A DNA stretch of 64,000 nucleotides from Pagrus major (lineage: Eukaryota; Chordata; Actinopteri; Spariformes; Sparidae): positions 23,088,660 to 23,152,659 of the forward strand of contig NC_133235.1 of assembly GCF_040436345.1 (NCBI RefSeq), given 5' to 3'. The notes under the pieces were generated by a model. That model did not search any database, was not told where the DNA came from, and saw only the letters and a program-made list of their open reading frames with translations. Made by a program: the position numbers and the translations under genes. Shown here piece by piece: positions 5,214 to 53,600 of this stretch (its first letter is position 1; each line of letters begins with the position of its first letter).

Positions 5214-5232
5214 CTGCAGCAGCAGCAACAAC

Positions 5233-6466
5233 ATGACAGGCAACTGTTCATTTCAATGTGTGGACGAGCTGATGAAGTATTTGGAGCTGGGCATCTACGT
5301 CCCCATATTTGTTGTTGGTTTGATTCTCAACGCTGTGGCGCTGTTTGTGTTCTGCGTCGTTCTGCGAAAATGGACGGAGTCAACTATCTACATGACCAGC
5401 TTGGCTCTGATGGACCTGCTCCTCCTCTTCCCTCTTCCCTTCAAAATGCATGCCAGCAATCACCTTTGGGGTGCCAACCTCCAACGTCTCTGTTCGATCT
5501 TGGAAAGTCTGTATTTTGTTGGAATATATGGCAGCATCTACACCATCATGTGTATAGCTGTGGACAGATGGGTGGCTATCTGTCACCCGTTCAAAGCCAA
5601 GCAACTGCGGTCACCCAAAGCAGCTTTGGTGACCTGCCTGGTGGTCTGGGCGGTGGTGCTGGCAGCGATTTTTCCGACCACCTATCGCTTCAGAGAGGCC
5701 GGGGACACGGAGTTTCACTGCTTCCACAGGTTTTCAGAGAAAGGCTGGAGCCCTCTGGTGATCATCTGTGTGCAGGTGTTTGGGTTCCTCCTGCCTGCGC
5801 TGGTGCTGGTTTACTGTTCGGTCCAGACCATCTGCGCCCTTCAGCAGTCCGGCCAGCACAGCGCGCAGAGCCGGGCCTGTGTGAAGATCATCTACAGCAG
5901 TCTGAGCGCCTTCCTGGTGCCTTTCACCCCAAGCCACCTCGGCATTCTGCTGCAGTTCCTGGTGAGACAACCACAAGTTTGTTTGAAGTAAAGTGAAATC
6001 TGAAGTGTGAAGTGTGATGAAGGTGAAAAGCAGTAGTTGAAACTTTGAATCACATTGCATCATCTTCATCAGCAGATGGGGTTTAGTCTATTTGTTGTGA
6101 AATGTTTAAATTTCCATTTGTTGCTGACCAATTTAGGGACTTCTCGTCCAAATTACAAACTACAACATATCAGTACAAATGTATCAAGAAATGTTAAAGG
6201 TTATAATTAATTTTGCAATAAACAAACAATCTGAATGACTCAAGATGATGTCTATCTTATACTAAATCAGGTCCCCAAAAATTAACTCACTTTACCGGAG
6301 AGGGGAAATCAATTCACTTAGTCATTGGCTGAAAGTACCTGCTTTGTTTTACATCGCTGTCAGAAGCAGAGTTTCCTGCTTGTTTTTTAAATACTTAATC
6401 AAACGAACTACTTACTTTTTATGGCAACACGCATCCAAGCCAGGGCTGTAACCAGGATTTCAGAAA

Positions 6467-18033: not shown

Positions 18034-19284
18034 ATGGCCCCCATCCGGAACAACACAAACGGAATGGACAGAGGTGATAATAACCGCAGCGGGATCAAAT
18101 CTGACAGAAAGGTAAGGGGCCCTCATGTGCGAGAAGTTAACGCCAGTGTTGCTGTTTTTTTTTGTTTTTTTTAACTTGGCTAACAAGTAACTCCATTGTC
18201 CTCACTGTTTTTGGCAGATGAGGAAACCTCTGGTCGAGAAGAAAAGAAGGGCTCGCATCAATGAAAGTTTACAAGAACTCCGAGTTCTCATCGCAGATGC
18301 AGACGTAAGATATTAGAGTTATATTTGTGCCCCCCCCCACCACCTGCTTCATGTAGTGTTGTTCCTCAAGGTGAATTAAATAGTTTTGTTTTAGCTAGCT
18401 TGTGCTGGTTACTTACGAGCCTGTGTTTTGTGTCACCCGCTGCAGTTGCAATCAAAGATGGAGAACGCCGAAGTGTTGGAGATGACAGTGAAACGTGTGG
18501 AGGGCATCCTGCAGAGCCGGGCTCAAGGTAAACACTACACATTTAAGTTAATTAATCAACAGTTCCTTAAATATTTCACTTTTCCTTAAAAATAAATAAA
18601 TAATAATTTGCATAAACTTGCTAATCACTTACACTGCATTCTTCCGCTGAACAAAATAGTTCTTTAAAACTCACAAGAAGTGACTTTATAACGGCTGGCG
18701 CATTAATATTCCAATCAACTGTACTGCGGCCACAGGTGCGCGTGGTCATCTTCGAACGCGGCTCAGCCAATCAGAGCAGAGCCCCCGACGTTTATAAGTC
18801 AACCGTCCCTGTGTTGCTAACTCCTGAGCTAACGCCCGTGTCGTGTTCTCCTCCCGCAGAAGTGGACGCCGTGAACCGGGAGGCCTGCGAGCGCTTCGCC
18901 GCTGGCTACATCCAGTGCATGCACGACGTCCACACGTTTGTGTCCAGCTGTCCGGGGATCGACCCCGCGGTCGCCGCGGAGCTGTTGAACCACCTCCTGG
19001 AGAGCATGCCCCTGAACGACGAGGACCGCCTGCGGGTGATGCTGCCGGACGCGGTGGCAGAGCGCCCGGGCGGCAACAGCACTTGGTCCCTGTCAGAGAG
19101 CATGTACGCGGCCCTGGTGTCCCCGGCCCCCTCCACCACCTCCTCCAGCGATGACCTCTGCTCTGACCTGGACGAGACAGACTCAGAGCAAAGCCACGTT
19201 TCCTCTTCGGAGGAGGCTGACAGCCAGGATGTGTTGAGCTTGCCCTCCTTAACTTACTCCAAGTCAGTGTGGAGACCGTGGTAG
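18034..19284 (+). CDS. hes6: HES6-type bHLH-Orange transcriptional repressor
   Basis: Four coding exons, 18034-18111, 18218-18304, 18446-18527 and 18860-19284, encode 223 residues (human HES6 has 224). The N-terminus is short. The bHLH spans about residues 27-80, with the basic segment KPLVEKKRRARINESL and the short loop typical of HES6. An Orange domain follows at about 90-135 (ERFAAGYIQCMHDVHTFVS ... LLNHLLESMP). A Ser/Asp/Glu-rich tail leads to the C-terminal WRPW motif that recruits Groucho/TLE. HES6 acts in the nucleus, antagonises HES1 and promotes neuronal and muscle differentiation; fish hes6/her13 genes also act in somite segmentation. The start MAPIRNN resembles human MAPP. The upstream in-frame ATG at 17863 adds sequence with no family match. 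Zebrafish her13 is a related paralogue, so the exact paralogue name is uncertain. Confidence 0.92.
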
Positions 19285-24442: not shown

Positions 24443-27400
24443 CTAGCTTGTCGTGCCAAGAGAAGGACCGTGGCAGGAAATGACAACAGTGTTCGTGGGT
24501 TCCTCTCCGGGCCTCTGCTGGCAGCCGACCTCCCCCGAGTCTGTGTCAGCGATGTCCAGGTCAGGATGATCCTCCGCCGCCTCCACTACAGCTGCTGCCG
24601 CCTCTGAGGTGCCTTCACAGCAGGCGCACACCTGGACGACACACACAGATTCAAATGAGATATGAAAACGAGAAGGAGAGATATGCAGTAGGACGATGAG
24701 AAACCATGGAAACAAAGGCTTTTTTTTTAAAGAGATTCCACAATAGAGCGGCAATAAAGACCCTTCATAATGCCATTCTTACACTGAACCAATCAACAGT
24801 GGCATAATGTTGCCCCAGTGTGTGATTTTGGATAGCTTACCAGCATTTTTAAAGCAAAAGATGTGTGACGGTTATAACACTACATAATCAATGTCTAGTG
24901 TGATGTATGACAAAGGCATCAGGCATCACTTTCTAAACAATAACAATGGCATAACATGGCTATAATAATCATTTACCATCCCAATTATATGTTGGTTAAT
25001 CTCGTCCTCTGCTTGGAGGGTAAAGAGCTCCCAATTTTTGTCATTTTTGTCAGACATTAAGCTTGCACCAAAATGATAATTTTCTATATATTTCCTGGCT
25101 AAAATGAAATGAATTTAACTTAAACTCTCATTCTACCTTGATGTCTATTGCCTTTGGCAGACCTCCCTTCTTCATCCAGGGGTGGACCTCAAACAGCTCC
25201 TTCTTCTGCTCCTCTGAGAAGCGTGGCTGGCTCTTGTGCAGCAGTCTCAGCTTCTCTCTGTCCTCTCGGAGCACTCTCTGGATGTCACTGCAGACACACA
25301 CACACAGCCACATTTAACACTCGACGCAACATTCATATCTGAGTAGTCTTACTGAGGGTCGGGTTTCTGGATAAGTGGTTTGGACGATGGTCTAACAAGC
25401 AACTTTGATTTTTGTACTTATCTTAGTTATCAAAGTGTTTAACCTACAGAGCTGATACCATCTACAGCCTCAGTTCACATCGTATCTACCGAGTATAAAA
25501 GTAAGGGTGTCATCTAGTGGTCAAAAAGTGCCACTGCAATCAGCTCCAGTGTGAGTCATGTGCACTGATTTCATCTAGTGAAGTTGACCACAATAGAAAA
25601 TCATGTGGGCAATGTGGCTGCAAGGAATTAAAGTTAGCTCTTTGATGTCGAATTGGTGCGCCGGACCCTGAAGATATATTGTAACTAAATGAGATTAGCG
25701 ATCACGACACCTTTCACACTTCCTCTGTCATCTATAAACAGGTAACCTGTCTGTAACAGGACAGTGTGCCTGGACCCTCAGCCTTCTATTACAAGCAGAA
25801 GGTTGATAAACTATCACACAGTCTACTGGGCCACTCTCTTACTCCTCACAGGCTACACCCCTGTCCTCCAACTCACCACAAGGGCAGCTGATATGTCATC
25901 ATGACCTTGTCATCAGTGTTGGTAGTATGCAGCCACAGCGGGTCCTGCAGTACCTACTTGATGTAGTGGTCGCTCTGCTCCATCTCCATCGCCCTTCCCT
26001 CGCTGTGACCGTTGACCTTCTGGCTGTTCTGGGATGAGTCCACGCTGCCAAAGTAATTGCTACTGTTGTTGCTTCCTGAGAAAACCAAAAAAGCACAGTT
26101 CACATTTGTAACAAAGATTTTTTCTACAAAAAGACAGAATATTAAAAAGGACAAAATGGATGTGCCAGAGGTTCAGTACACCTCAACATAATTGATAAGA
26201 TGTTGAAACAGACCTGTTCCACTGCCGGAGGTCCCGCTGGCCGAGCCTCTGCTGCCTGACGTCCTGCTCTGAGATGTCCCGCTGTTGGACGTCCCACTCG
26301 CTGAAGTCCCACAGCCGTTGGACCGTGAGCCGTTGGACCGTGAGCCCATGGACCCCGACGTGGCTGAGCCAGTGCCTGAGCAGGAGTCCTCATGGAGGAT
26401 AATGTCCAACATGTCGCTGGACAAAGAGTTGACATCGCTGTTGTTGCCGTCGCCACGTGAACTTGCCTGCGAAAACAAAAACATTAAAGGATTAAAACAC
26501 CAAAGAAGAGCTTTACTTCACAGTTCTGGTCGACAGACTGGAGTACCTCCTCCATCTCCTGCTTCTTTATAACACAGGTGCAGTCTCATCAGCTGTGTTA
26601 CATCTTGCCTCTGCCTTTTAAGACTCAACTGGGAGCATGTTTCTGCTGTGAGTGGGGAAATTGTCCATCCTGCCAATCACCTGGTACACAATACCATCTG
26701 ATTACCATCGCTACATGATAAGGCTGAAACCAGACAGTGATGCTGATCCTTCTCCAGCTGATTGTAGTGGGGCGAATCATTAAAATGGAGCCTGTTTCAT
26801 CAACGTATTAGCTGGGGAAAAAATCATTGCATTCATGTGTAACAGAAGACAGTTGTAGTTGCTCGTGGTCACATCTCAGAATAATACAATACAGAGAAGA
26901 GAATTTCTGCACTGTTTTCTTTTGGTCTCCATTTCACTGCTCATGTTTACTGTATGGTTTAAACCTTGGTATGGTTCTTGCATGCAAAATCAAAGCACGT
27001 ATGCATATGAACATACAGTCCTTCATACAGTACAAGTGTGTTATCTATATTTAAGTTACTCTTTCTAGTGAGTTTTTAAAGTTCCTCATGCTTTATTTAA
27101 AATCAGTTTCCCTCGTCAATACGTTTTACTGGATGGACAATGCAAGACTTAAATTTGAAAAAAAAAAAGAAAAAAAAGAAGCTGTTACAGTTATAATTGA
27201 CATATGGAATCGGGGAGGAATGGGATTGGAGGAAGTGTGGAGGTTTCTGATGAATCGCCTACCTCTTTGCTGCAAGCCCTCAGCCTAGAGAACACTTTAT
27301 CCCAAGACAAACGCTCACAGACACAGGGCGTGTCCTCGCAAAACAAGGGTCCTGGTGGACCAAGGACACTGAGAGATGGCTATAGGGTGTAAGGGATAAT

Positions 27401-30302
27401 AACACAATGTGTTAACACCCTGGGCCACATTTCATCTGAGGAGTCTAGACTGACTTGACTTCACATGGCATATCAATACAGTAGCAGTACAGTGAACAAT
27501 GTGGAGGAATCACTGTGACGGTGGCATTAAATCCTGACAGGCTGAGAGACGTATGAATGAATGTCTCGGGGGAACATGCCACAGCCTGAGTTCAAACATG
27601 CCACAGTGATACAATTCAGCGGGGGATTGACATTTTTAACCTGATAGTTTAAGAATGTTACAGGTGAGGAATATCAGTCATAGGCATTGGGAGTCTTTCA
27701 TAAGATGAAGGAAAGAAAAGGGAATGAAGTAATCAAACAAAAAGAGGCTTGTTCTTTTATTTACCTGCTTCAGCTCCCTCTCCTTGGCCTGGCTGCCACT
27801 TGCTCCTTTCTCCCTTTCTGCCGTATTATTCCCTTGTCCTCCAGAGGAGAGCGCTGTGCTGTCCTGCCTGTCCACCGACAGCTCCAGCTCTAGCAGGTTG
27901 AGGGGTGAGCTGCAGCGAGACTGGAACAGGGGTGGGGACGCCGGGCCTCCAGACTGCGGTGTAGAGGAGCGAGACAGGCCCTCCGCTTGGGCCTTCGGGG
28001 TTTCCGAGGACGGGGGGAAGAAGAACGAAGGGGTCAGGTAGCCGGCCTGAGGAGCGAACTGGTTCTGGGAGTTGAACTGGTTCTGAACACTTAAGGAAGG
28101 AGGAGCTGTGAAGGGGACCTGGACTGGGAAGGCAGCCTGACAAAAAGGCTGTGTTTGGGTCGGGAAGCCACCAGTCTCTGCGTGGAACACTGGCTGTGGG
28201 GGTGGCAGTCCGGTGGCCACTGGAGGGTACACATAGTTGGGCAGCACTAGAGCCACAATGGGGGTGACCATGGGGGCGGTGTAGGGAGGCGCATGGATGA
28301 TTGGCGGACAGGGTGGAGCCTGGGAGCCCTGATTGTCCCTACAGCCTTGTAGAGTGGGGTCTGTCCGGGGAGCTACGGAGCTGTCTCTGGGGTAAACCTG
28401 GAGGGGGTAGCCAGGCATCACGGAGGGGTAGGCCATGGGGAAAGTTGACTGCGATGTTTCAGAGGGAGACCAAGAGGTCGGGTTGAGTCCGTGGTTAAGA
28501 CGAGGAGGCCGGAGGTGCTGTCGTCTGTGACGAGACACTGTGCTGTCCGAGGACTCGATCTGCTTCGCTCTCTTTGACTTGCTCCTCTTAATACGTGTGC
28601 CCCGCCGCGTTGTGGGCTCGGCACCTGGCTTGAGAGAGCGAGCAGCTGGTGCAGCTAGAGGTTAGAGATAAAAATAGAGTTGGTTGAATGATTTCTGATT
28701 GTGACAAAAATGATTATTATTGAAAACTTGGCAGTAAACAAAAGTACGAGTTAACCCTAAACAAGTGGAAAACTCCTCTTGGGTTGGGTGGGACTTACAA
28801 CAAAGTCCAATCAGCCAAAAACAGGAGCAGTCAGAAGATCAGACAGGATCTAAATAAGTCAACACTTTGGCTGGATTATCTCAATGGCTGTTTGGCATTT
28901 AACTAGTTGATTGTCACTAGTTATATATAATAATGTTTACAATTGACAGTGAATTATAATTGTACCATTTGCTTTAATTTTCTCCTCTAGTCTTTGGCTA
29001 ACCTCTGGAGTTTGTTTGAACCCTATATGATCATCTGACATCTTGTATTTTTTGTAATCAGCTGTTAACTTGCTGAGCGAAATATTAAAGAGACAGAAAC
29101 TACAAAAATAACAACCGTTATCCCTTAAAAACTTTTGATGTGATGTGTCAGTGTGGTGGTCAGACGCACCATCGCTGGCCATCTGTCCTCTCTGGCGCTC
29201 CAGGTACTGAGAACAGTTTGCTTTGAGTGCTGTGATGCTGCGATGCTCCTTGAAGCGATACAGAAAGGCCTGCTCCTCCTTCTGCGTATGGGCTGCCAGA
29301 ACCTGCTTGGTCAACCCCAGCCTCTTGTAGGACTCCCTCTCCTGACAGGGAGGGGAAATAGCAGAAAGAGGAGGAGCCCAGATGTTCTGGACGGATTCTA
29401 CCGTCTCTCCTGTACCCGGGACATCCTCTATGATTTCTATACAAATGACACATGGAGAAAGCACTTTAATATATTGTAGAGCAACGAAAGGGTAGAGTTT
29501 TATAGCTGGAACAGTTTTGTTCGACATTAGCAGTGACGACAACAAAAGCAATGTTGAAAAATGGAAGAAGCTGTCAAATGGAGGCCTGTGGTCGAATGAC
29601 AAGACTCACCAGTCGGAAACTGTAGTGATGTATCATCATGAGGTCACTTTGGCTACAGTGATTACTACAGTGGCTATTGAATGGATTTGTGACTTTTATA
29701 TATATATTTAAAAAATTCTACCTTTATATAACAATTTGCACAGATTTGTTTTATCTTTCTGCCGCCACTGTCGTAAATTAAATAGTCCAATGTGCTTCAA
29801 AGTTGTCAAAATGACGTAACACTATACGTTCGAGGCGGGTGGATTACTGATTAGGTAGAGCGGCCTTTGAACCAGCTGCTCTGAATGCAGCAGTAGTTGG
29901 GTTATTATCACTCTTGCATAATGAGAGAGCGTAATAGTGTATTTTGGCATTCATGTTAATGCAGTTGATAAAACTTTCATGGTAACGACGTAACGATGTC
30001 GCGAACGCAAAACTACATTAACATCATTATTTTCGTTTTTGTTATGTGTAACAATTTTGAATGAAATGGGAAGTGGAGATGCCAATCGTGTATCGAGCCT
30101 TCTTTTTTGATTCAATTAAAAAAAAGAAGAATTTCTTATCACCACTAATGCGGCCATTTTGGACGGGACCCAATTACCCTGCAAACCTTTCTGCACATTG
30201 AAGATACAAGCTGCGTTTAAGAGACAAGTTGCCAAACATCCACTGATAAACCACGCACACACACACATACTCTCAAAAACACAAAACACAGAGAAAGAAG
30301 TG

Positions 30303-30362
<60 letters not shown>

Positions 30363-33300
30363 GTTTCATTTACAGTGCTGTAAAAAAACATTTTCCTCTT
30401 CCCTGATTTCTTCTGTTTCTGCATATATGTCACACTGAGTAGCTTCAGATGTTTAAAATATATTAAAGAGATTAAAATAAGTAACTGATGCTTGAAAATC
30501 TGCAACTGTATCTGAGCTGAAGAATTTCTGCAAAGTTTAAGAAACTATCAAACAGTTAATGCAGTTATCGCTGCTGATATAGTGCAACCTATCACTATGT
30601 TTACCTTGGCCAATACCTTTATAAGTGAGTGATATGGTCCTCGAATGACTAAACACTATGCTATTCATCTGATCTGACCTCATTGTATATCAAATACCCA
30701 AAAACAGAGGTTATCAGGTTGGAAGAAGACACTTTTTGACGACACTGTACCTGACTCTGGTTGAGGTTTCTTGTCCCCAACATGCACTATGGTGCTACTG
30801 TAGCTACACTGGCTGGTTATGGACACCACGCTTTCTGGTTTGTTAGGTACAGGTAGGGGCAGCGAGGTGCCCACTACCGCTGAGGCAGCGTCACTGGACT
30901 TTTTGTCTCGAACATCCAAAGCGGAGAGACCAGACTGATCCTTCAACAGGGCTGGTTCTGCCAAGAGAACAGAGAACAGGAAATACTAAAAAAGGAACTG
31001 GCATTGTAGTGAAAAGTGTGAGAGAGAAGTTTAAAGGGCATAGTGCGAAGGCCTTAAAGGAATAGTTCACGCCATAATTATAAATACATATTTTTCGGCT
31101 GTAGAGATATCAGCCTTCTCTCGAATATAATGCAACTAGATGGCACTCGGCTTGTGGTGCTCAAAGTGCCAAAAAATACATTTGAAAACTCGACAGCAAT
31201 GTTTCTATCTGGAAATCATGACCCGGTTATTCAAGATAACCCACAAATGTATGTTTTTGGTGCTTTAAGCACCGATTGCATTCATGATAAATAGCACTAC
31301 AGGTAAGAGGAAAGTATGTATTTTTGACTTTGGGGTGAGCTGTCTCTTAAGGCCTTTGCACTTTGCCCTTTTGAAAATCTTTTTTTTATCTTGTGCATAT
31401 CTCAAGTTCTGTTTCTCATTTACTTTAACTATATAATTTTATAGTCAAACAATAAGTAACTTGTCTTTGAAAGGTGCTATATAAAAAAAGTAATTAATAT
31501 TATTGTTATTAAAGCTGCTGTAAGCATTGTCGTCGCTTTAGCTAAAGAGCGGTCGGTAATCGCCAGACAGAGCAGCAAACAGGAGGATCCTGCTCTCTGC
31601 CTGTTCATGAGCAGACAGGACCGCCTCTTTATAGAGTTCTCTGTCCTGATTGGATAAAGTGGACAGTGATACCAGAAAATTTCTTTTCTCTTTTACTGCA
31701 TGAGTGGAGGGAGGAAAGACATGGGTTACTGACCATACACTCTATAATATAGAGCACTTAACACTTATTTGAATAAAAATATATCACTTACAGCAGCTTT
31801 AACTGTCCCTCTAAGGTGACATTAAGAGTCTGATATCAATTTATGGTAGGAACTGATGTGGTGAAACATACCTTCAGACGCCTGCATGCTGTTAGATCCT
31901 TTCTGCTTGCCGTCATCTGAGTTAGATGACGTGGTGTTAGAGGAAGACTGGCACTTCCTCTTCATGGTGATGGGAACATTACAGCTCTCCAAGTACCTGC
32001 AGGAATCATAACAACAAAGTGTTCAGTTGCTGTTTTTTTTTTTTTTTCCCCCAATCAATTATTTTCAACTACTTGTCAAAAAGACATCACAGAACATGTG
32101 GTGAAGCACTTTAAGTGTGGAGCTGTTCAGGTCGAAACCAAAGATTTTGGCATACTAACTACCTCACGAAACACAGAATATGAATATTCCAGATTGTATC
32201 CCATCGCAATATCAATGTCCACAGTGGAGTTTCATAATTTCCTCTCTCAAATATCTCCTGTGGGTCATTTGATGGAAACTTTACTTTTGTAGCACTTCAC
32301 TTGGTTTCTATGGGTTGCATTTACTAAACTGACTATGTGTTAAAAAGCGAGTAAGCTATAAAATTCACGTGTATAAGGACCATTCTTTGAAATCATGTCT
32401 GTCTTCATCCCCGTACCTGACAACACTGTCCAGACAGCTGATCTGCTGGTAGGAGTAGCCGTTCTGATCATTGAACATCATCTCCTCCTGGACAGCGGGC
32501 CTACTCTCCTCCATTGTGACCTCCGTGTCCCTCAAGCTGCGAGGAGCCGCTGAGTCTTTGGGCCGCACCACCGCTGAGCTCTTCTGTACGGACTCTACTG
32601 GAGGGAGGTCACGAGTTGGTTGCGCTCAAACACAGACAAATAAATGTGCAGTTGTAATGTTCGTAATAAGCTGGACTTACTGCCGTTGCTTTTCTTGTTG
32701 TGTGGCTTGGTTGTCTGCTGCTCCTGGCTCTTCTGAAGGTGAATTCCTTTACAGATTTCCTGAAATGTTCGCTATGAAATAAAGACACAAGACAACATCT
32801 GTTTTAAAAACGAGACTCCAAAATCGGTTGTTCTAGATTTCACATGTTGGTAGCACATTTTATTTAGATGTTTCAGCCCAAAAAATACAGTATATAACTT
32901 GATTACACTGACAACGATGAATATGAATTATTTTTACTCCTTGTTCAGTCTAAGAACAATCAGGGTCAAGTTATTTTGTACAAGTGCAACAACCCAGTTT
33001 CTGCTGCTGCCATATCATCCTAATCAAGCAGGAACACATGGGCTGGAACACACGGTGATAAGCTGGAGATGTTTGAATTTACTCACAGGTCTGGCTTTGT
33101 CGCTCACTTCCTCCTTCACTTGTCGCATTTTGCTCCCACTGCCGTTTTCGAGGCTCTCGCTAGAAGAGGTCATGCCCAGAATGTGGTCATTTCTGCTCAG
33201 GCTGCCGTAGCCACTGGAGCCACTGTTATGAACCGGCTGATCACAGATATAGAGGGAAGAGAGTGATCAAAAAGAAGAAGAGTTAAAAAGGCAGAGAGGA

Positions 33301-36300
33301 TGAAGCAGGGTGAGGAGTAAATTTAAATGTAATAGTTACAAATGATTACTACTACAGGTTTGCAACATCACAGTGATTAGGTCTATACAGTATGTCCCCC
33401 TTTCTATCCCTCCTTATCCTCTCTCACCTGTAGCAGGAGCCGATGAATCTGCTCAGTAACCTCCTGGATGTCAGACTCCATGTTCTTCATCTCGGCCACA
33501 GTCGAGGACGGGGCCAAGAAAACATCTTCATTTACAGGGCCCCTGATACACAACAACAAAAAGCACATCAGCAGATAAGCTACTGGTTTATAAAATGTCT
33601 TTTTATGAATATCAAAGAGTGACGGACCATATATCCGCTAAGGCATACAGGACAGTAACACTCACGTGCGCACTTTGTGTCTCCCGATAACAAAGGAGAC
33701 CTTGCGGCTCCAGGGGTTAACGAAACTGGACCAGCTGGTGTCAAGAATGATGTATTCGCCATTTCGCGCACAGAACCGGATGGACGAATGGTCAAACGGT
33801 TGCCCTGCGTACTGAAGGACTGCAGAGAAAGCCAAAATAATACAGTCAGATCATGATGCCGACAGACAGAAAAGTTTTTTGCCTTCATCTGTTACATTCT
33901 GTGGACTCACTCTTTCTGTGAATACCCAACATAATGGGCCGGTCATTGGGATGCAGGTGGAGGAGGATTGGCGTGCCAATCAGGTCCTGGGGGAGGTACC
34001 CGAGGAGAGGAACTGCCCTAATGCACAGAAAAACATGAAAAATAACTTCAAATCAATTCTATTATCCTCTGATGGTTTGGTGATTTGTGTGCCAACATGC
34101 CGTCATGGCTTACCTCTCATCCACATCCTGAAACACACAACTAGGAGTGTGTGTGGTGGTGAAGATGCGTTTGTCTGTTGGAATTCTGGGTGCTTTAAGG
34201 AAGAGAGAAGAATTGAATCATTAAAGGGTAACCCCGACCAAAAATGAAACCAAATTAGACAGAAATTAGCTAGAAAGTCTTCAATTTCTTTCCTCAAACT
34301 ATCCAAGTGGCTTTAGAAAAGGATCCCTACAATTATAGACCTTTTAGTTGAACTTTCTGTTCTATTTAGTGGTCACTGAATTGACGTCTCAAACCTGCAG
34401 TCAGGTTCTTACCATCGTAACCAGAGTGGACCCTCTCAGCCAGCAGGAGGCAGCACAACTGGTCTTCGTGTACAGTGTCTTGGACCTTCATCAGGTAGGG
34501 TGTCATGCGGAATGGATAGTACTTCAGATCACCCTCGCACTCCTTCCCACCACTGGAAATGAGTGAGAAGAAATGTTAAATTAAATCAAGTCATATTAAA
34601 ATTGTCTGTTCTCTTTAAGTACCATCTGTGCCCAAGTTTGTGTGCATTTTACATTTCAAGTTTTTCAACACAAGGGGGCAGTGTTAACTGTTTTTCCATC
34701 AGTAACAGCCTACATTGAATGAGAGTGAGTAAATGTAGGTAAGTGCATTCTTAGATTTCTAGTTTGAGACTTAAAGTGTGATGACAATTCATGGTCATTT
34801 TTACACCAGGTCAGTGCTTAGATCAGAGCGAGAGTTTAAGTTTTAGGCATGTTGAAGGGGTTTGGAAGTCAATGGAAAATATTGACAGTATAGTACAGGG
34901 CAGTGAGGTGTGGGTGAGTGTGTTTTAAATATGTATAACACTGACCTGGAAAAAGCATCTGATTACAGTTTACAAGCATATGATGTCACAAACTAGTTCA
35001 AAAACATCTAGAGTGGAACGAAAAGTATGAATAAAACCACAAACAGGTACGAGCAGCAGATGGCCTGACACCATGTTTGAACCAACACCCACCTGATACG
35101 ACAGAAAAAGGACTTCTCCTGCATGCAGTCAGACGGTGACGACTCTGAAACGGGGAAAGAATGTTTTAATTCAAAAGCAACATGATCCAGCTGAATGCTG
35201 GTCACGGTCACAGCTCCCGTAGGCGATCAAGCATTGATTAATTCTATCCAAAAACATCATCTAGGAGCGCAGCTCTGCACTTAACTGCAATGAATTTAAT
35301 CAGGGTTGAGTCTCATTTTGGTGTATTAGTCAAAATAACATAGGGAAAAATATATTAAATAATGAGACAGCTCAGTCTATTCTATCCAGCTGAGTAAAAA
35401 CGGGCAACTATATTCATTCTCATTAATGACTGAGGTCAGGTCAACTTGAACTTCATGCCCCATGCTGATGGCAGCCTGTGCATTATAGACTTACTAGGGG
35501 TCTTATTCACTCATTTATTTCTCTAATACATTTTCGTATGCATCCAAAGTACTTTGAGAATACTTTTAGACAGTGAGAATGAGCCATGTACATGGCTAAT
35601 GAAAAAGAATATTCTCCTGACATTCCAGTTTACATGCTTACTGTGATTACACGCCCTAACATGTTATTGTTGGCATGGCAGCTGTGTTTAACCCTCTGAC
35701 CACTAATCTAGGCTTTTCTTTTGTGCGTTCATCTCTACCTGTTGGTGAGTTTGTTTGTGTACAACGTATCCATGACAACACACAGAGCTGACTGTAAACA
35801 GGAAAGGAGCTGTGTGTCACAAACTGCGGTAAAAAGGCTGGAGCAACAGCAACTTGTACCATTTTGCTTCTTTGTGTCGAATTAAAAAAACCTGTTGCTA
35901 TCCAAGCCTTTCATAATATTTAAAAGCGGCTGTGTTTAACCTTCTGACCAGAAATCTGGGCTTTTCTTTTGTGCGTTCATCTCTAACCCAGCTAACTGTT
36001 GGTGAGTTCGTCTGTGTACAACGTATCCATGACAACACACAGAGCTGACTGCGGTAAAAAGCCCTACTGAGACACATATTACAAATGCACTGTATTCATG
36101 TCCAAAGAATGCTCCCAAAACCCGGATAATTGAAAACATATCTCACATGTCGTAATCAGCAAATGCTACAGTCGAAACAAGGACTAATTTGGAATACTGA
36201 AATATAAAATGCTGGGAATGTGGGAATATTAGTGTGCATGTAAATGCAGCCACTGTGTCTGCAGACATGTACCTGCTCCAGTGCACATGCTCCAGGAGGG

Positions 36301-39300
36301 CAGGCGGTAAGGCGTTGTGAAGCTGTAGAACACACTGACGTCCTGCGGCGTCAGGAACTCCACAAACTTGGTGTTCTTGAACACATCTCTCTTACAGTTG
36401 AGGATGGAGGCAGCCTGATCGGAAATGTAGACTATCCTTCCCGTGTTGAGAGAGACTGCGACTGCAAAAATGTCCTGTTGAAGAGATCCAAGCCACAATC
36501 ACACACCAGTATCAGCAGCTAAATATTATAATAAAAAGACGTTTCTATTAGTTTAAAGATAATTCGATGACTCACATTGTTTTTGAGGGTGTATTCGGAA
36601 GTAATGCTGTCTATCTCCTCTATCGTGTAAGAGGATACATCCAGGCCTGAGGGCTGACTGTCATTGATCATCAGCAGCTGGTAATACTCCTCATTGGCTG
36701 CAAGACACAAAGGGATTTATTAAACTCTGGTCAGAACATAACGTACAACATGGAATAAGAAAACAACGTTGATGAACCAAGATGAAGAGTCCAAGAAAAA
36801 GATGATGTATTCAAACTGAAGTCACAAAATTCTTTGTCGATGAAAAATGTCTTGTTGCTTCGCTAAAATGCGTCATAATGTGTAACAACCAGGCTGCACT
36901 TCTGAACCTCTGCCCGCCCATTTCCATCTGCAAACATTTAGATAGGCTAGAATTAAGCCTCTGCAGACTATTACCCATGAAACTACCGCTAAAATGTTCC
37001 TTCCTGCAGGAAGTTATGACTACATATCTTTTGGGGGATTTTATTTAGCTACAATGCATCCTGAATTCCAAAGAAAAGACATTCTTGTTGTGCAAAGTAC
37101 ATTCAGACAGAAATTGAACGCACAGAGAGCTTAAACAAAAATTAACTAAACTTAGTTAGTTTACCTTCCACTTGCTTGACACAGCGCAGCGCATACTTGA
37201 GGGCGTTCAATGTGGATGACTTGTTATTGTGTCTCTTCTCAGCGGGCAGGTGAAGCTTCAGCTCCTTCAGAGTTTTAAGCACCTCCTTCTGAGTCTTGGC
37301 CTTGGCGGACTCTTCACTACTGCAAGTTGCATAATCACACACACACGTGCACGGTGGCAAGTCAGATAAAAAATAGATTCATAAAAATAGATAACTTCTA
37401 GCGTAAACCATACATTTCGTAAGTAGTATTGTCGCTAAACAAAGAGGAGTTTTCAGTGTTAGAGCAGTGTTTGGTCGACTAACCTGCAGCCGCTGGTTGA
37501 TGGGTTGTCCTGCTCTGAGCTCAGCAGACTGAAGGCATTTGAGCTGCTGGGAGGAGATGGACTGTGGGAGTTGGAGCTGTGGGAGAGAGAAAGATAATTA
37601 AAAATTTTGCTACAAAACAAATGACTTTAATAACCTCAAAAAAGAGAAAACATAAACCTTATGGTTTATTACGCCTGTTTAGCACTGTGAATTATGACCT
37701 GGCCTAAGTATGAACTGTTTGACCTACTTTTAGACACAGACCTCGCTGATTTATGTGAATGTGTTTGTGCACAGTAGCACTATGTGCTCCCCGGACGTGT
37801 GTCGGGTGTTGTGGGTACACCCAAGGCTGTCTGGCTAGCTGGACATCGTTTTGGGAAAATCTCCCTTTCTCGAGGGCTCTCTGAGTGTGCTATAAACTGT
37901 AATTTTGTCCGCGTCTCTGCCAGGGTTTGCTTGGTGGATGAGGCTGGCCTTTCAGCTGAAATTGGTTAACTCTGTTCGCTCTTCGCTTTTACCATTTTAT
38001 TAAATTACACGTGGACAACCTCGTGTGAATCATCTATTATTTGTTCACTTCACGCAGCTTCAGGTCTCATTTAGCAGCCGGGTTACAAAAGAAAATCAAT
38101 TCTGAGGTCACTCTCACAGGACCTGTGTCAAAAGCTCAAAGGTGCACAGCAGGGAAGCCCTAATACAGCAGGAGTTAAGGGGGCTAAATTCAACTAGGAG
38201 CAGGGCACAGCTTGAAAATCAAGGGCAAATGGTAGTGAATAGAGAGTTACATAAATGGATAACGCTCAATGTTTGTGCTGTTTATTTTGACGAAAACTAT
38301 ACTAGGTTATATAAAACAGTCTGACCGCTATTTTCAATAGCTAATATGCTAAACTACAAAATAAATTTGAAAACAGTATATTTAATAAATATTTTATGCA
38401 TAGTGTGAAAGTTCATACTAGACTCTGGACTCAGTAGCTTTCAATACATCTAATGGGCTTCTTTTGTGGATGCAGCTGAAGAATGCGTGTGTGTGTGCCC
38501 CACTGCATTAACCTACAAGCTTAATGGCGCACAAATACATTAAAATGACTCATCACAACTCAGACTGCTAATTATAACCTGCTTACCTGGCTAAGAATAG
38601 AAAACACCTTTACAAATAGCCTCTCTAAGCAGAAGGAGCCTAATTCTATCTAATATGGCTTTCAGTGCACAAGAATGCAACAGCTGGTTTTAGACTGGGC
38701 AGCCCGAATGGGAATTAGACTGAGAAACAGTTTATCACAGTAAGCTAATTAACTGTGTGGTAGTAAGTCTGTGTGCAACCTTCTGTGGACTAAAACAGAA
38801 GTCTTGCATGGTCAGATATATCTCCACAGCTCTGTGTCAGCAGTAGAGAAAGGCCATTATCATTCTGCTATAGGGGAAAAATACTTCTTATACTTGCTGC
38901 GGTGGAACATGTAGGGAGGCGAGCCCTGGCATTAAAACAGCCGAAACCTTGCAAAGGAAAAGTTTACATTTTAGCCATAAAGCAGCCTCAGTATGGGTTG
39001 TATTTTGTTGGGCCAGTTGTTATTTTATCATTATTTTGTGCTAAATAGCTTATCATTCAGGTAACTTATTGTTTCCTTTTCTCTACAGCAATTTTAACTC
39101 TTAAATGATCCCAATTACAGTGTAAAACAAGAGCAAATCCAAAGGCTCTAAAGAATCAGTAGCTAAAATAGTAAACGCACAGAGAGTCACCCGTAGTTTT
39201 AGCCAATTTAATTCAAGGACAGTGACTGTGCATCTGTGTTAGTAAGACAATAAAGTCAGGCTAAAACAGAAGTAAGACACTTATCTCTGTGGGTATGTTG

Positions 39301-42300
39301 TCTACTGTATTAGCTCACAAGCTTACCTTAAGACTATTAGCAGCTGTGAGATACTGACTCACCTGTGCTACATCTCAGGTTACTATATATAACCTGCTTA
39401 CCTGGCTTGGAATAGAAAACACCTTCAAAAATAGCCTCACTGAGCACAAGTAGGTATCTAATATAGCCCTTCAGTGCTCAAGAATGCAACAGCTGGTTTT
39501 AGACTGAGCAGTCTGAGCATGTATTAGTGTTCGGTTAGCTAATTTGTGCCGTTGTAGTAAGTCTACAAATCGTGGAAACAGGTTCCAGAAAGAGATTTCC
39601 CAAAGAGGCAGAAGAGTTTCTGCTTTGGTCTCTGCTCCGTGCAGGATATTCGTCTGCTCAAGTTGAAGATCAGGGCAAGGTGGCCTGGTTTAGAAACCTT
39701 CCACTGAAAGGCTTTGAGAAAATTTGACCTCTTATCTCATCAGTGGGTGTACGTGTGGATATCTCATTACACTGAAAAGATATATGAGATATATAAGATA
39801 AGATATATAAGACATAGTACTGTAATACATACTGTATTGGCCTACACGCTTATCAGTGCACTAATACACTAACATCAGCAGCTTTCAAGAGATACTGACT
39901 CATCTTTCAGATACAACATGTTGCCATAAATAACAGGCTTAAATGACTTAGAATAGACAGAACATCCACGAATACCTTCTCCCAGTACAACCAGAGACCT
40001 AATTCTACCGAATACAGAGTAGTCAGTTTATGAAGGTTCACCTGTAGAGCGTAATGGTCAAATTCAGAGTTAAAAAGTTCTGTCAAGCTGTATGGGGACT
40101 GTGATCGAACAGCAACTTTCAAGTCTGGACCAAATTGAGGTCTGGACAATGTCACAGTGACGTTACCAAACTTTTTCTGTGGGATCATTGTCTAGTTAGA
40201 AAATAAAATGTCCCCTGCAGACTGCAGAGAATCATCTCCTCAGCATGATTCTTCAAGCACCATGCTTCATGGTGGGGAGGATGTTTGTTCCTGGCATCAT
40301 GCAGAGTTTGGCTGACAGCAAATATAGCATTTTGTGTGACAGCCAGAGTGCCCAACCTTCCTCTCTCCCATATACCATCTGGAAAATGCTAGCACCAGAT
40401 GTCATGTCAACAGGTTTTTATCTCCTTGGCACTTGCTATAACATATTTAATATATCATTTTCCCTCAATTTGGATCCATTTTCACCATCACCGAAGCCCC
40501 GTTTCTCTTGATCCATGTCACAAAAGCATTGCTCCATTGTCCACTGTGATTCAATGTTGTAAAACAATAAGCCATGAAACACTTTCTAAGTTTTTACGGA
40601 AGCATTTTCTGCTCCTTCCAGTCTTTCTGTTGATCATGTCACGAGTATTCCTCTGTACTGACGCACAGAGAAAAAAAATGGTAGATATGAATCTTCACAT
40701 GTGACTACAGATGTGATAGTAATCAACCACGCTGTCCAAAATGCGGGACTGTTCCTTTAACAGGCACATTAGCCCACATTGTTCAGCCACTAAGAAAGTA
40801 ACCACTTTTTCCCTCTCTATTATACATGATGCACAGCTGAGGGCCACAGATGGGTCAAGCAGGATCTTTGTGACAAAAGGAAAAGCTACATATGGCAGAC
40901 GCTATGGCTTTAATCAGCAAAAATCCCCATCTCAGTCTGGTGGCTAATTAATACAAATGTGTTAATCTCTAGTCATTATTTCAGCATAAATTTGGAAACT
41001 GAGTATCAACTAAGTATCAAGATTTTCATTGAACAACATGCTTAATTTGCCCTCTATACATGCTGTTTCCGGTGAATGAGATCCAGAAAGTGAGAGAGAA
41101 AACGGAGTAAGAGAAGTAGAAAAGGAGACAGAGGAGTTGAAAAAAAAAAGACAAACAAAAAATCCAAAAAATGGGTACAAAATGTTCGACATTCAGTTGA
41201 AGAGAGGGAGTGCTGAGTGAGACAAAGAAGGAAAAAGAAAGTGCGTCATTGGAGAAATAGTTAGTTATCCCGTGAGCAGACGAGGAAGGGAGCTGGTGTG
41301 CGTGAGAACACTGTACACTCCGGTCAGGAAGAGGGTGTGGTTTTAAAAAGGCAAAAAGATCTGTAATGAAGGCCGAGTGGGGTGTGAGAGGCAGGGCTTA
41401 AAGTGAGAGAGCAAGTATGTGAAATGACGCAAATCTGCTCGTTCCGCCCACTGATAAACAGCCACAAACACTGCGTTGCTATGGATATAACAAAGAGTTG
41501 GAGAGCATGACAAATCCCATCTGGCTTCAAGAGAGAGCGAGTCTCCTGCATGACATCAACCCAGTCTTCCCACTTTGAGCAAGCTATTTTATTATTTCCT
41601 ACCCACTTGGCTTCTGTCCTGGGCGGACTACGTTGTGTCTGAACTTATTTTGGACACACTGTGGTCACGTCTAGGCAGTTTTGGAGTAATTTGGAAATTT
41701 CCGGCGGGAAGTGTGTCCCTTATGTCATAGAAGGCCTGAACAAGTTGCCTCGCTGACACTGCTGTGAGCTGGGATGTATGACAGTAGACATGAAGCTTTT
41801 ATTCACTGTCTTTATCTGTGTGTTTCTGTGTTGTACTGGCTGTGAAAACAAATCCCCCTCAGGGACATGAGTCCAAAAGTAAAATGTTGTCTGGCTGGCA
41901 CCAGTCTGAAGCGCTCAGCCGGCAGGAAGAATGTCATTGAATGTATTAAACTATTATTTAAATCAATGTCCATCCATATTTTTCTCATGGTCAAAGAAAA
42001 GTGATGGAGCGGGTTCACTGTGATTCAAACTGTATGGCCATCACAGCAGCCTTGGCTCATTCATCTACTCACATCAACACTGACAAACACATCAGACGCT
42101 GATGGCTTCAGTCATTATGAACAGACTGCTGTGGTGGAGGGCGAAGCGGACATGATTTTTCATCTTTTATTCCTGAAAGACGTCAGTCGATGTACATATG
42201 CTGAGGTTAACTACGAGGGCAAAAGGAAGAGAAGTGATGTACAGCATGATTCTTTCAGCATTGGCATTCAAATTCCTCAAAACGTTGGTATTTTTACTTA

Positions 42301-43242
42301 ATTTGGGTGGTGATCGGAGATTGGACAAGTATTTGTCAGCTATGACCCATTTTTTGGGCCTGCTCTGATTTGAATTCATTATTTGATTCGATCATTTCTG
42401 CTGACCTACATGTGGATGCCTTCAAAAACGTATTGGTGCTGGCACTGCATTGCTTTCAAAGCAAATACCCCTGCATATTTAATGATTTATACTGCTTGTG
42501 TAATTAAGGCTCCATTATGACTGTGTGCCTGAATCAGCAAATATCATTGCTGACAGTAGATTCTTTGGGACAGTAGATCCGGAGAATTATCTTGAAAAAA
42601 TGAATCGACAGTGTGATTTATCGTCCCCAAAGAGGGTGCGATGACCAGACTGAACATCACTGGATACAGGGAGGATTCCTGCACAGTGTGCTGATAACAA
42701 CAGTAGCTCCCCACTCTCCTCCTGCTCTTTTACACTGACAATCACAGTAAACGTGCCAGAAAACAAAACAGGCTTAGTAATAACTTCATCATTCCTGGAG
42801 CCACCACTGACCTCTTGTTGCTTTCAGAGGACTCAAGCAGTGCTGAGTCTTTACTGTTGCCATTGGAGCTGCCCGTTGACTCATGCCCGTGGCTCTCGTT
42901 GCCATGACTCTCGTTGCCGTGGCTTTCATTGCCGTGTGATTCGGTTCCACTGCCACTGGACCCACTGCTCTTCATCTCCACGTCCTCCTCGCGGAGCGAT
43001 CGGGAGCGGGCGTTCTTGCGATGTTTGTGCGGTGAGGCGGAAGGGTCCTGCCCACTGCTGTCGCTGCCCTCCGATGGGAGGCCTAGGTCAGGCCCGCCTT
43101 GGCTGTAGCCACCCATCCGGTGCAGCTGTGCCATGGAGCTGCATCCGGAGGCCCCCCTTGCCATGGAGCTGCACCCTGAGGCTCCGTCCTCATCCTCCAG
43201 CACCGGGAAGCGAAAGGGCTTGGAGTCTGAATCTTCTGACAT
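24443..43242 (-). CDS. per2: Period circadian regulator 2, with an in-frame TAG in coding exon 20
   Basis: There are 22 coding exons on the minus strand: 43242-42812, 37576-37484, 37319-37165, 36697-36576, 36474-36273, 35144-35093, 34552-34413, 34192-34114, 34017-33911, 33819-33666, 33542-33428, 33236-33087, 32771-32681, 32597-32417, 31996-31872, 30957-30751, 29436-29170, 28654-27765, 26466-26214, 26075-25877, 25287-25137 and 24631-24443. Every junction phase agrees, giving 1451 codons. The order is a Ser/Gly-rich N-terminus; an HLH-like segment (about 185-225); PAS-A and PAS-B (about 228-530); an NES (EQIHRLLLQ); a beta-TrCP-type degron (SSGYGSL, about 557); CK1-binding segments; the CK1-phosphorylated FASP-type cluster ([13 protein letters not shown], about 780-792); a basic NLS and Pro-rich region (890-1187); a Ser/Gly-rich run; and a CRY-binding segment (about 1340-1388). 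PER2 represses CLOCK-BMAL1 with CRY. Codon 1312 is TAG, so the full protein may not be made. Teleosts can carry per2 duplicates, so the copy is unknown. Confidence 0.95.
25954..25956 (-). other. per2: In-frame TAG stop inside per2 coding exon 20
   Basis: The frame reads ...HYIK-TAG-VLQDPLW... and stays open afterwards to the exon end ([13 protein letters not shown]) and through both remaining exons. PER proteins have Cys or Tyr between the Lys and VLQDP, as far as I remember. TAG is one base from either Tyr codon. This could be a genuine nonsense allele, a population variant or a base-call error. Confidence 0.9.
30304..30360. repeat. (CA)n microsatellite in a per2 intron
   Basis: About 28 uninterrupted CA units lie in the intron between coding exons 16 and 17. 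Confidence 0.95.
31032..31373. mobile_element. Small non-autonomous element with long terminal inverted repeats
   Basis: The left end ('aaagggcatagtgcgaaggc', then 'cttaaaggaatagttcac') pairs with the reverse complement of the right end ('aaagggcaaagtgcaaaggc', then 'cttaagagacagctcac'). The inverted arms are about 40 bp and the element about 340 bp. There is no coding capacity. It sits in the per2 intron between coding exons 15 and 16. Confidence 0.7.
31513..31798. mobile_element. 286-bp MITE flanked by TTAA duplications (piggyBac-like)
   Basis: The ends AGCTGCTGTAAG and CTTACAGCAGCT are perfect 12-bp inverted repeats. Each is flanked by TTAA (31509-31512 and 31799-31802), the target duplication used by piggyBac transposons. 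The interior is non-coding. The terminal bases are not the usual piggyBac CCC..GGG, so the superfamily is inferred only from the TTAA. Confidence 0.65.
35680..36065. repeat. Near-tandem direct duplication in a per2 intron
   Basis: Two copies, about 35680-35840 and 35926-36062, share 'ggcttttcttttgtgcgttc', 'atctctaacc...gttggtgagtt' and 'tgtgtacaacgtatccatga' followed by 'caacacacagagctgactg'. The second copy has a 10-base insertion, and the first has an insertion of about 30 bases before the shared 'gcggtaaaaag' end. No coding content. Confidence 0.85.
38500..40040. repeat. Triplicated block in the per2 intron between coding exons 1 and 2
   Basis: Three diverged copies in the same orientation lie at about 38500-38790, 39296-39570 and 39831-40040. 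Shared landmarks include 'cctacaagctta', 'gagatactgactca', 'gaatagaaaacacct' and, in the first two, 'aagaatgcaacagctggttt'. The third copy is the most diverged. No open frame is conserved among the copies. Confidence 0.75.
40220..40700. mobile_element. Probable remnant of a dispersed teleost repeat
   Basis: The phrase 'caccatgcttcatggtgggg' followed by 'tggcatcatgcagagtttgg' resembles a motif common in degraded DNA-transposon-derived repeats of fish. No ends or open frame are visible. The assignment is by remembered pattern only. Confidence 0.3.
42880..42950 (-). repeat. per2: In-frame HGNES tandem repeat within per2 coding exon 1
   Basis: Four successive units read [20 protein letters not shown]. 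The same exon has a 27-base duplication encoding GASGCSSMA twice, at about 43128-43185. Both keep the frame. They lie in the poorly conserved N-terminus of PER2. Confidence 0.85.
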
Positions 43243-50439: not shown

Positions 50440-50640
50440 CCTCCCTAAGCTCCTCCCCCAGATTTTCGCTTATTGGTCCAGAGAGCCGTCGCTCCCTACC
50501 TCACAGCGCTCCTAGCCAATAGGCGCTGCCCGCCCCCACTTAGGGCGGTGACGGCGGCCGCCGCTCCGCGCTGCGATTGGTCAGTGGTGCCGTCGCTCCT
50601 TTTACATAAGGGTGTCATCGCTTCACGTGGAAACCCACGG
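50440..50640 (-). promoter_or_regulatory. per2: per2 promoter, CpG-rich, with CCAAT boxes
   Basis: This is a GC- and CpG-rich block in AT-rich surroundings. On the minus strand CCAAT boxes occur at complement(50472-50476) and complement(50576-50580), with one in the other orientation at 50516-50520. There is no clear TATA box. With an E-box and D-box just upstream, transcription probably starts at or below about 50440. The start site is inferred. Confidence 0.7.
50602..50629 (-). promoter_or_regulatory. per2: D-box and E-box pair (light-responsive module of per2)
   Basis: The plus strand shows TTACATAA at 50602-50609, the reverse complement of the D-box TTATGTAA. The canonical E-box CACGTG is at 50624-50629, 14 bp away. 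In zebrafish per2, closely spaced E- and D-boxes near the start site are known to drive clock and light induction through CLOCK-BMAL and PAR-bZIP factors such as TEF. Confidence 0.75.
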
Positions 50641-53600
50641 CTACCAACGGCGTGCGAGGAGCGAGAGCAAATCACTACGACGGAGCTGCCGGTGAATGAA
50701 GCGGTGCCGATGGTTGGCTCACAGCGGCTCAGTACGGCCGACTGTTATCTAAACGGTTATACAAGTATGTGTGTAGCCAATGTGGGTGAACCGCGCGGTG
50801 CGCAGTCATACGCGCAAGCATAAAAGTTACTGGAGTCGCATACAAATGTGATATAACACAATATGTCTTTGATCGGGGCTGTTACCGCATCCATTGTGAA
50901 CCTTATGTAAAAAAATAAGTGCAATGTTGCAGTGAGGTTGCAGCCATGTTTAATGAATGTTGTGATACATACGCATATTAAAAACAGTTTTTATTGTTAG
51001 TGAGTTATTATTTGGTTTAAATCCCCAAGAATTCAGATATGTTGCAGTGTATTTTATGTCCCATATCAGAGCTACTGCGTGTCCAAATTCCAATAGACTG
51101 ATAGAAAAGACGCATTTATTTAAAAATATTCAGTACTGTGTAGTTTTGGAGAGGAAATTCAAACAGAATTATAATATTTACCCTATTAAGCACTCAATAA
51201 CACAAACTCAGAAATATTTGTCTTTTCCGTAACTGAATAAGCAAGCTGTGAAGGTCCTCAGAACACTGTTCGAAGCTAGAAAAGGTGGCAGGGTCCGCCA
51301 AATATAAACAATGCAACACAGGATAAAATTGTGTTGTTTGTTTATTCAGTCATGAAAACAAATATAGTTTGTTTATTTGGTCGTTTAGGCATAAAATGAA
51401 TCAGTGAATGAAGATCTTTCTCTTCTGATCAACATTTCTTCCCAAAAACTACATAGTGCACCTTTAAAATGTGTTTTTCATCTATATTTATCTTTCAGTT
51501 TCTGTTAATGTCAAAAAGCTTCTATTACATAAAGTATATTTAAACATCAGTTCTTAGTTATTGCATATTAATTGGTAAATAAAGACTGTGCATAAAATGT
51601 TCATATTGTCCAGTAACAAAATCTTCATTACAAAAACTGAATGTTTGGGGTGTTTTGAATTCTGTTCTTCTTAGAAGTCAGTCAAAGTCAAATTGTCCCC
51701 CTAGTGGCTGTTGTTTGGACTCACGTGCTGGTCAAACCAGATATCACTGGCTCTAGCACCAAAGGTTGAGTGACTGCTGCCAACGCTCATTACCCCGATG
51801 GCACAGTTTTAATAATGCATGTGTGGGATTCTCTGAGTTTGGCATCCTTCAGTTTATCACAAAATGTGCTTGTGTTTGTGCTGCTATTTGTTTCAGCCCT
51901 TTAGTTGGATCAGCATGCAAACGCTGCCAGTGCCGAGCTTAAAATGTGTTGCAAAGGAGTTGCTGCTATGCCAAATCTATTTTATGTTCTTGCTACTAAA
52001 GGCTTGTCTGTTCACTCAAGTGACGCCAGTAAAAAAAAATCTTTCAATGGCTTTTTCACGCTCTTCTTTTAGGGGCTTGTTGACCTACTTGGATCCCTTT
52101 GAATTCACTACATTTATAGGCAGATACCTGAAGCAGAATGCACTTCAACAATGATCCCGAGGTGGATAATGAGGGCCCAGTGTACAGCAGATTATAGGAT
52201 TTATTTAGTTTATCAGTATTTTTTAAATTGGACTCTGGCTGTATTCCAATACAAACAATGTAACAAGTAACTTGGGATGGTTTTACAGCATGTGGAAGAA
52301 ACATTGGTCACATTTTTGTGGAGAGTAATTATATTTTTTTCCCTATTTTGTCCAAAAAAAAAAAAAAAAGGACTTCACCAGACACAATGCTGTGTGCCCT
52401 TATTTTGGTGATCCACTGCAATTACAGCACATTTAAAATGTGAATTAAAAGGTCAGTAGTTCAAAGTAAACACAGTTTGACACACAGACACCTAAGAGGA
52501 TGTCGTTTAATTATGCACATCAGTGATAACTTCTGCATCTCTGCATCAATAACCAACAGCGCGCCATTAAAGAAACCAGAGCCTGACTGATATATTGGTC
52601 GGCTGATGTTGTCTTATCACAGATATATTGATATGGTGTACATGTTGTACACTTCATCCTATTGAAGTTTACTGTTTCAGTGTACTGATGTCATTTCAGA
52701 CAATAAGGTTTATTGTGAAATGTTACATATGTTTTTCACAAGTGTTTGATAACCACATTTGAGGGATCACTGTATCAGCTATCATCATTTTATATTCCAT
52801 AAAAACGATATATCAGTCAGGCACTAAAAGAGACTTAATGCCTTAAAATGCAATTAGCAAACATCACTAATCACTTTCTTGATACCTCCCTGCAACCTTT
52901 TTCAAAATCCACCAGGTGGGGATGGGAATACCTTCGACAGGTCTCAAGTCTATGAAAGGGCTAACACATGAAGATAACCACATTTACACTCACATCTACA
53001 GGAAATTTCCAATAATTATCCTTTATTTCTGGACTATGTGAGGAAACCGAAGCACCAGAAGGAAACTCACAGAGACACAAGCCACCTTTCCACACAGAAA
53101 GGCCAATCTGGCTGGCTGGATTCAAATCTAGGAGACATTTTTAATAATAATAGGCACAACAACAAGGACTTTAGTGTCTCAAAGATTTTTTCTAAACATG
53201 CAACCAGCCACTCTTACATCCATTCTGACTAACTGGTATGAAATTAACATATCTCTCACACTATACCGACCTCCGTTCACACATTCAGACAGCAGCAGTG
53301 ACACTGTCTTACCATCTGCTCAAGGCACAGACAGCTGACATCAACTGAATGTGAACCCAAGATGGTGATAAATGGAAAAGAGTCAGTCACCTCACAACTC
53401 CATCAACATGCTAATTTAGTTTCACTGGTAATAAATTGAAAACGTGACGATTTGCCGTTCTGTCATGAGTAGAAATACGCCCATGGAAAATTCAGAACAT
53501 GTGTAAACAAATTCTAAATTAAGGAACATACTTCATAAATATAAAATAATAACGTGCAGCACTGGCAAGTTTTTGCCTAGTTTTTAAAAAAAACAAAACA

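Follow-up and report, generated by a model that had tools for sequence, protein, structure and literature searches.

The stretch analysed here, a 64,000-nucleotide (nt) segment of the Pagrus major genome (the window; C21:23088660-23152659 of a 785,883,843-base assembly of 25 records), carries on its minus strand the clock gene period2 (per2). The rebuilt gene has 22 exons and 1451 codons including the final stop, with GT-AG boundaries at all 21 introns and consistent phases, and it contains a single internal stop: codon 1312 of 1450, 90.5% along the coding sequence, is TAG (25954-25956; CTA on the plus strand), and the TAG is real in the assembly sequence. A preliminary description of the window had placed a stop at this codon of a coding region of 22 exons joining in phase, and the rebuilt model bears out both claims. 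The model was made without the exons of that description, by running tblastn between the window's stop-to-stop frames and the other three period loci found in this genome. A simple splice model was run next, in which in-frame stops other than the TAG at codon 1312 were forbidden by design, and manual curation followed at five places (the end of exon 9, exon 12, the starts of exons 18 and 20, and exon 22); the count of one internal stop depends partly on both.

The bHLH_PER, Per3-like PAS-A, and PAS domains recognised by Pfam (PF23170, PF21353, PF08447) are all encoded upstream of the stop, while the Period_C profile (PF12114) is interrupted by it, with profile positions 1-63 matched ahead of the stop (protein 1196-1255) and 94-171 behind. 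The stretch behind the stop is related to solved PER2 cryptochrome (CRY)-binding domains (best expectation value, E, 3.2e-27), every match to those domains falls behind the stop, and the CxxC pair at codons 1390-1393 is encoded there. The stop thus lies ahead of the CRY-binding domain and full-length PER2 is excluded from a normally spliced message, both as first proposed. Searches of viral_contigs and genome_contigs, collections without fish genomes, returned no relative for the protein behind the stop. The Cys attributed to mammalian PER2 at this position stands for one of three solved PER2 chains, 6of7_B (presumably human PER2), but not for 4u8h_B and 4ct0_B, which have Tyr. In the same genome the equivalent codon is TAT (Tyr) in the second per2 gene and TGC (Cys) in per1. 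Counting from Cys1210 of mouse PER2, we take codon 1312 to be mouse Tyr1132, apparently the first PER2 residue in chain 4ct0; 4u8h we take to be the murine complex of PMC4157330.

Searching the genome with an 82-residue CRY-binding-domain query, which would miss any period gene without that domain, returned seven matches at four places, on records C21 (the window), C2, C10, and C6. In a tree of the PAS region, the C21 and C2 genes paired (support 89) next to mouse PER2 (68), C10 joined PER1 (85), and C6 joined PER3 (88), the tree comprising eight sequences with modest support and paralog rows taken from automatic models. Compared with solved chains, the window copy gave E values of 1.2e-138 for a PER2 PAS chain (3gdi_A), 2e-131 for PER1, and 3e-113 for PER3. 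According to the available text of PMC11457068, a majority of teleosts carry per2 in two copies that probably go back to the genome duplication of this group. The second per2 here, on C2, is open at the exon homologous to that of the stop, where it has its Tyr codon, and at exon 21, and a candidate exon with CVYC (CxxC) lies downstream at that locus; C6 holds a homologous per3 locus. We call the window copy per2a, and the C2 copy per2b, on the basis of the promoter and of a Hairy-orange neighbour, not of an orthology test against zebrafish. This neighbour is a hes6-like Hairy-orange exon ending in WRPW (window 18625-19284, plus strand); HES6 presumably adjoins PER2 in mammals.

A perfect match to the promoter motif of teleost per2, CTTGTATAACCGTTTAGATAAC, is present at a single place in the window, on the gene's strand; none of 100 shuffles matched the motif at up to three mismatches. 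An E-box, the D-box CTTATGTAAA, and a CCAAT box, which are elements of the zebrafish light-responsive module (PMC2759001, in the text available), lie 115 bases downstream of CTTGTATAACCGTTTAGATAAC and 7.4 kilobases (kb) upstream of the per2 ATG, and, compared with the human module, the 21 bases around the D-box show a single difference. Two more E-box/D-box pairs lie near 49.8 kb of the window, with CACATG as the E-box. The 40-kb stretches searched at the C2 and C10 loci contain neither an E-box/D-box pair within 45 bases nor the per2 motif. Between the two per2 copies, in the DNA searched, only the window copy shows the light-responsive module. At the per3 homolog on C6 (L019-L022), two E-box/D-box pairs lie about 25 kb upstream of the first modelled exon. 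Over the whole window there are 16 copies of CACGTG where 7.4 are expected, a count reached in none of 100 shuffles, and 11 copies of the D-box TTATGTAA where 3.9 are expected, a count reached in 1 of 100; the D-boxes cluster at 47836-51532, six of 11 lying within 3.7 kb around the per2 promoter.

To judge from comparison with the paralogs, the part of per2a behind the stop has not detectably decayed. At positions where per2b and per1 agree, differences private to the window copy were counted at codon positions 1 and 2, giving 4/47 in the exon 20 tail, 4/70 in exon 21, 21/509 in the bHLH-PAS region, and 149/676 in the middle of the gene. Private residues number 14 in the window copy and 13 in per2b over codons 181-515 (PAS), and 9 and 10, respectively, in the CRY-binding part. 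Within the exon 20 tail, L1321H, M1322T, A1323T, and R1338C alter columns common to per2b, per1, and two solved PER2 chains, and the first three of these, with a change of PSR to PLC, fall where the CRY-binding domain is most conserved (25877-25956); among columns shared by the four relatives, 4/17 are changed in the tail, 1/20 in exon 21, and 3/10 before the stop. Local decay behind the stop, which LHTT and PLC suggested at first, was rejected when the tests proved not significant: private residues in the tail (4/21) did not differ significantly from those in bHLH-PAS (14/211, p 0.066) or exon 21 (5/29, p 1.0), the DNA counts gave p 0.15 against bHLH-PAS, 0.71 against exon 21, and 0.39 against all other codons, and 67 of 474 sliding windows rank higher than the tail. 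With no decay detectable, the stop would be young, wrong, or bypassed.

Features of the per2a locus (positions in the window; basis of each assignment in the last column)
Feature	Position	Strand	Basis
per2 (per2a-like) coding region, 22 exons, 1450 codons + stop	24443..43242	-	gene model; PAS-region tree
exon 22, last coding exon	24443..24631	-	gene model
CxxC, codons 1390-1393, position of PER2 zinc-binding pair	24617..24628	-	translation; motif from available text of PMC4157330
exon 21, C-terminal half of CRY-binding domain	25137..25287	-	gene model, match to solved domains
exon 20, 199 nt, starts phase 1, ends phase 2; last 80 nt = stop and following	25877..26075	-	gene model
segment removed by alternative donor: 81 nt, 27 codons' worth including TAG, in frame	25877-25957	-	
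in-frame TAG, codon 1312	25954..25956	-	sequence, gene model
junction, possible alternative 5' splice site CAA/GTAGGT	25957..25958	-	gene model, donor scoring
exon 19	26214..26466	-	gene model
exon 18	27765..28654	-	gene model
exon 17	29170..29436	-	gene model
exon 16	30751..30957	-	gene model
exon 15	31872..31996	-	gene model
exon 14	32417..32597	-	gene model
exon 13	32681..32771	-	gene model
exon 12	33087..33236	-	gene model
exon 11	33428..33542	-	gene model
exon 10	33666..33819	-	gene model
exon 9	33911..34017	-	gene model
exon 8	34114..34192	-	gene model
exon 7	34413..34552	-	gene model
exon 6	35093..35144	-	gene model
exon 5 (PAS-A)	36273..36474	-	gene model, Pfam
exon 4	36576..36697	-	gene model
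exon 3 (bHLH_PER)	37165..37319	-	gene model, Pfam
exon 2	37484..37576	-	gene model
exon 1 of coding region, ATG 43240-43242	42812..43242	-	gene model
CCAAT box adjoining light-responsive module	50576..50580	-	
D-box CTTATGTAAA of light-responsive module	50601..50610	-	
E-box CACGTG of light-responsive module	50624..50629	-	
teleost per2 promoter motif CTTGTATAACCGTTTAGATAAC, 0 mismatches	50744..50765	-	motif from available text of PMC11457068

The explanation we favour, with roughly even confidence, is that the TAG is a recent and genuine nonsense allele of a light-inducible per2a, fixed or carried on the sequenced haplotype, and buffered by per2b. Because its elements are intact, the promoter would be expected to remain responsive to light and to the clock. 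Translation of the message would end where the CRY-binding domain starts, at codon 1312. Most of this message would probably be degraded by nonsense-mediated decay, which is predicted because two splice junctions follow the stop, 77 and 228 nt downstream, distances that satisfy the usual 50-55 nt rule. Translation had been expected to end at 1311 residues, as the position of the stop implies, but decay of the message is equally likely. Any per2a protein would keep its PAS domains and lack CRY binding through the C-terminus, and the loss could be tolerated because, as we propose, per2b and per1 carry PER-CRY repression. The earlier conclusion that the truncated protein could not form the normal PER-CRY repressor is supported in that the CRY-binding domain lies behind the stop, but the second per2 is open at the homologous exon and PER2-CRY need not be lost. 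In favour of a genuine allele, the stop lies in an otherwise intact 22-exon gene. Further points on this side are the open per2b, the light-responsive module and per2 motif upstream, the continued constraint behind the stop, a site outside any homopolymer, and the recurrence of per2a loss among fishes (PMC12154703, PMC10298351).

Several observations weigh against it. The stop is the sole lesion in the gene model, the constraint on the lost part is equally compatible with an assembly error or a bypassed stop, and other clock loci (three further per loci, seven cryptochrome/photolyase places) seem not to be eroded. At those seven places, 17 of 19 matched stretches, all from exons for flavin adenine dinucleotide (FAD) binding, are free of stops; reading of the DNA put the TAG of the other two in intron sequence, and no pattern emerged. 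Over the four period loci and these FAD-binding exons, the clock does not look eroded at the sequence level. Private residues over all alignable columns, in turn, are more numerous in the window copy than in per2b (102 against 64, p 0.004), as would fit a longer relaxation; the excess falls mostly in codons 516-1195 (62 against 31), which align poorly and where the automatic paralog models contain spurious stretches. The same excess speaks against our rejection of an old pseudogene, which was made on the single lesion, the presence of the promoter elements, and the equality of private changes in the PAS and CRY-binding regions.

The main rival of a genuine allele, a real possibility that we nonetheless consider unlikely, is a base or assembly error in which the true codon is sense and the gene intact. 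The intact remainder of the gene model, the constraint behind the stop matching that before it, and the intact promoter elements would all be expected, and a single substitution is enough to make the TAG, since 498 of the 13041 possible single-base changes in the coding sequence (3.8%) create a stop. However, the assembly is chromosome-scale, with, among the records covered (all but C23), 23 at 23-42 megabases and one, C25, at 17,031 bases with mitochondrial genes, the site lies outside any homopolymer, and an assumed base error rate of 1e-5, from which the real rate may differ, predicts about 0.002 error stops in this gene; a whole exome would hold a few such stops, which a scan singles out. 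Readthrough of the stop, or its recoding by adenosine-to-inosine (A-to-I) editing of UAG to UGG, is highly improbable and was rejected. UAG is a favourable triplet for A-to-I editing, but in predicted folds its A sits in the loop of a 3-base-pair stem, and no long duplex was found around it with 3 kb flanks, the best duplex (-56.9) being weaker than the mean of 20 shuffles on the same grid (-59.6); known readthrough cassettes have CUA or a similar triplet after the stop, where per2a has GUA. It appears improbable that circadian function was lost, by adaptation or by drift, in a fish living in darkness or at polar latitudes, as in cavefish and Antarctic fishes. Truncated or lost per2 is described in the Somalian cavefish, a cave barb, cryonotothenioids, eelpouts, and a stickleback, in the available text of PMC5993827, PMC7826195, and PMC12154703. 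Against such a loss here, per3, which is lost in cryonotothenioids (PMC12154703, PMC10298351), has a homologous locus (a locus match only), the cryptochrome/photolyase places match largely without stops, and the light-responsive module is present.

Bypass of the stop by splicing is distinctly unlikely, although the sequence offers a route. An in-phase exonic donor, CAA/GTAGGT, overlaps the stop, and its use would connect codon 1311, after its second base, directly with exon 21, removing 81 nt and giving a PER2 of 1423 residues without the N-terminal anchor of the CRY-binding domain and with the helix clamp and CxxC kept. The phase fits, the alternative message is open through to its end, and a GTAG donor is in use elsewhere in the gene, at exon 21. 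In the murine study, as far as its available text goes, CRY1 binding was abolished only by mutations in the C-terminal half of the domain and not by those in the N-terminal half (PMC4157330), and the four replaced residues of the exon 20 tail lie in the segment that would be removed, although the excess there is not significant. Exon skipping was rejected: among skips of up to five exons including exon 20, only that of exons 19-21 together (603 nt) is in frame, and exon 21 is lost with it. Alternative acceptors inside exon 20 also failed, the two directly behind the stop beginning at a codon boundary and hence out of phase. Support from donor strength is weak, as it depends on the scoring matrix. 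Scored with vertebrate donor frequencies, CAA/GTAGGT comes first among 207 exonic GTs and exceeds 7 of the 21 used donors; when the matrix is instead derived from 55 donors in the three paralog models, the site comes 10th of the 207 and exceeds 1 of 21. The normal exon 20 donor is stronger with both matrices (5.2 against 2.8; 4.06 against 1.64). A sense codon in place of the TAG would lower the score of the site only slightly (to 1.9-2.4, from 2.8), so the donor was not created by the mutation; per2b has no GT there and per1 a weaker one (1.88). We regard as quite improbable the further idea that the TAG is a poison stop within this donor, such that splicing yields a PER2 keeping the CRY helix clamp and zinc finger while the usual messages decay. 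Just as improbably, that PER2 would lack the segment beside the CLOCK-BMAL1 pocket of CRY and so be a separation-of-function form from the light-inducible copy.

Truncation or loss of per2 in fish is already known from the available text of PMC5993827, PMC7826195, PMC12154703, and PMC10298351. The Somalian cavefish Phreatichthys andruzzii, named in the preliminary description as a natural parallel, would share the outcome, a PER2 without its CRY-binding domain and downstream coding sequence that is still conserved, but not the cause: in the cavefish, aberrant splicing carries the main transcript into an intron stretch derived from a transposon, with early polyadenylation (PMC5993827), whereas here the cause would be a base change, and introns 20 and 21 contain neither AATAAA nor ATTAAA. 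Perciform fishes, among which per2a has been lost repeatedly (PMC12154703, PMC10298351), offer closer parallels: the same copy is concerned, by our assignment, with per2b kept. In PMC12154703, per2a is 'lost' when multiple inactivating mutations fall in the middle 80% of the coding sequence; the one stop found here lies just outside that range, and the copy would count as 'partially intact'. Sinocyclocheilus rhinocerous likewise carries loss-of-function mutations in per2 (PMC7826195), but in a pair of ohnologs, whereas in the present genome the homologous site of the second per2 is open. The P1172T change of reindeer PER2 is another natural change in the PER2-CRY interface, but a missense one with which the protein is still made (PMC11645128). 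The titles and abstract openings listed in the literature searches, which did not extend to figures and supplements, contained no report of a per2 stop at codon 1312. If the allele is real, what is special about it is the position of the stop at the start of the domain, the light-responsive module on the same copy, and escape from the middle-80% definition of loss. The reindeer proline (mouse P1156) is presumably that of QLP/SR, counting from Cys1210, and by this count the QLP/LC change of the window copy adjoins it.

A genuine allele would mean that a light-inducible PER2 had been uncoupled from cryptochrome by one base, with promoter and paralog intact, and would offer a clean natural test of PER2 without CRY and of the division of work between per2a and per2b. 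It would also expose a blind spot, in that surveys ignoring stops in the last 10% of a coding sequence would call this copy nearly intact despite its lost CRY-binding domain. Elsewhere in the window, intron 16 of per2 contains a long TG/CA microsatellite at about 30290-30370 (approximate, from the list of open reading frames). A Rhodopsin-family receptor frame (5140-5991, plus strand) matches positions 2-230 of the 260 of the 7tm_1 profile and, ending short of the profile's end, is either continued in a further exon or a truncated copy. A 298-residue open frame at 61108-62004 (minus strand) resembles, we assume, the C-terminus of a cation-chloride cotransporter.
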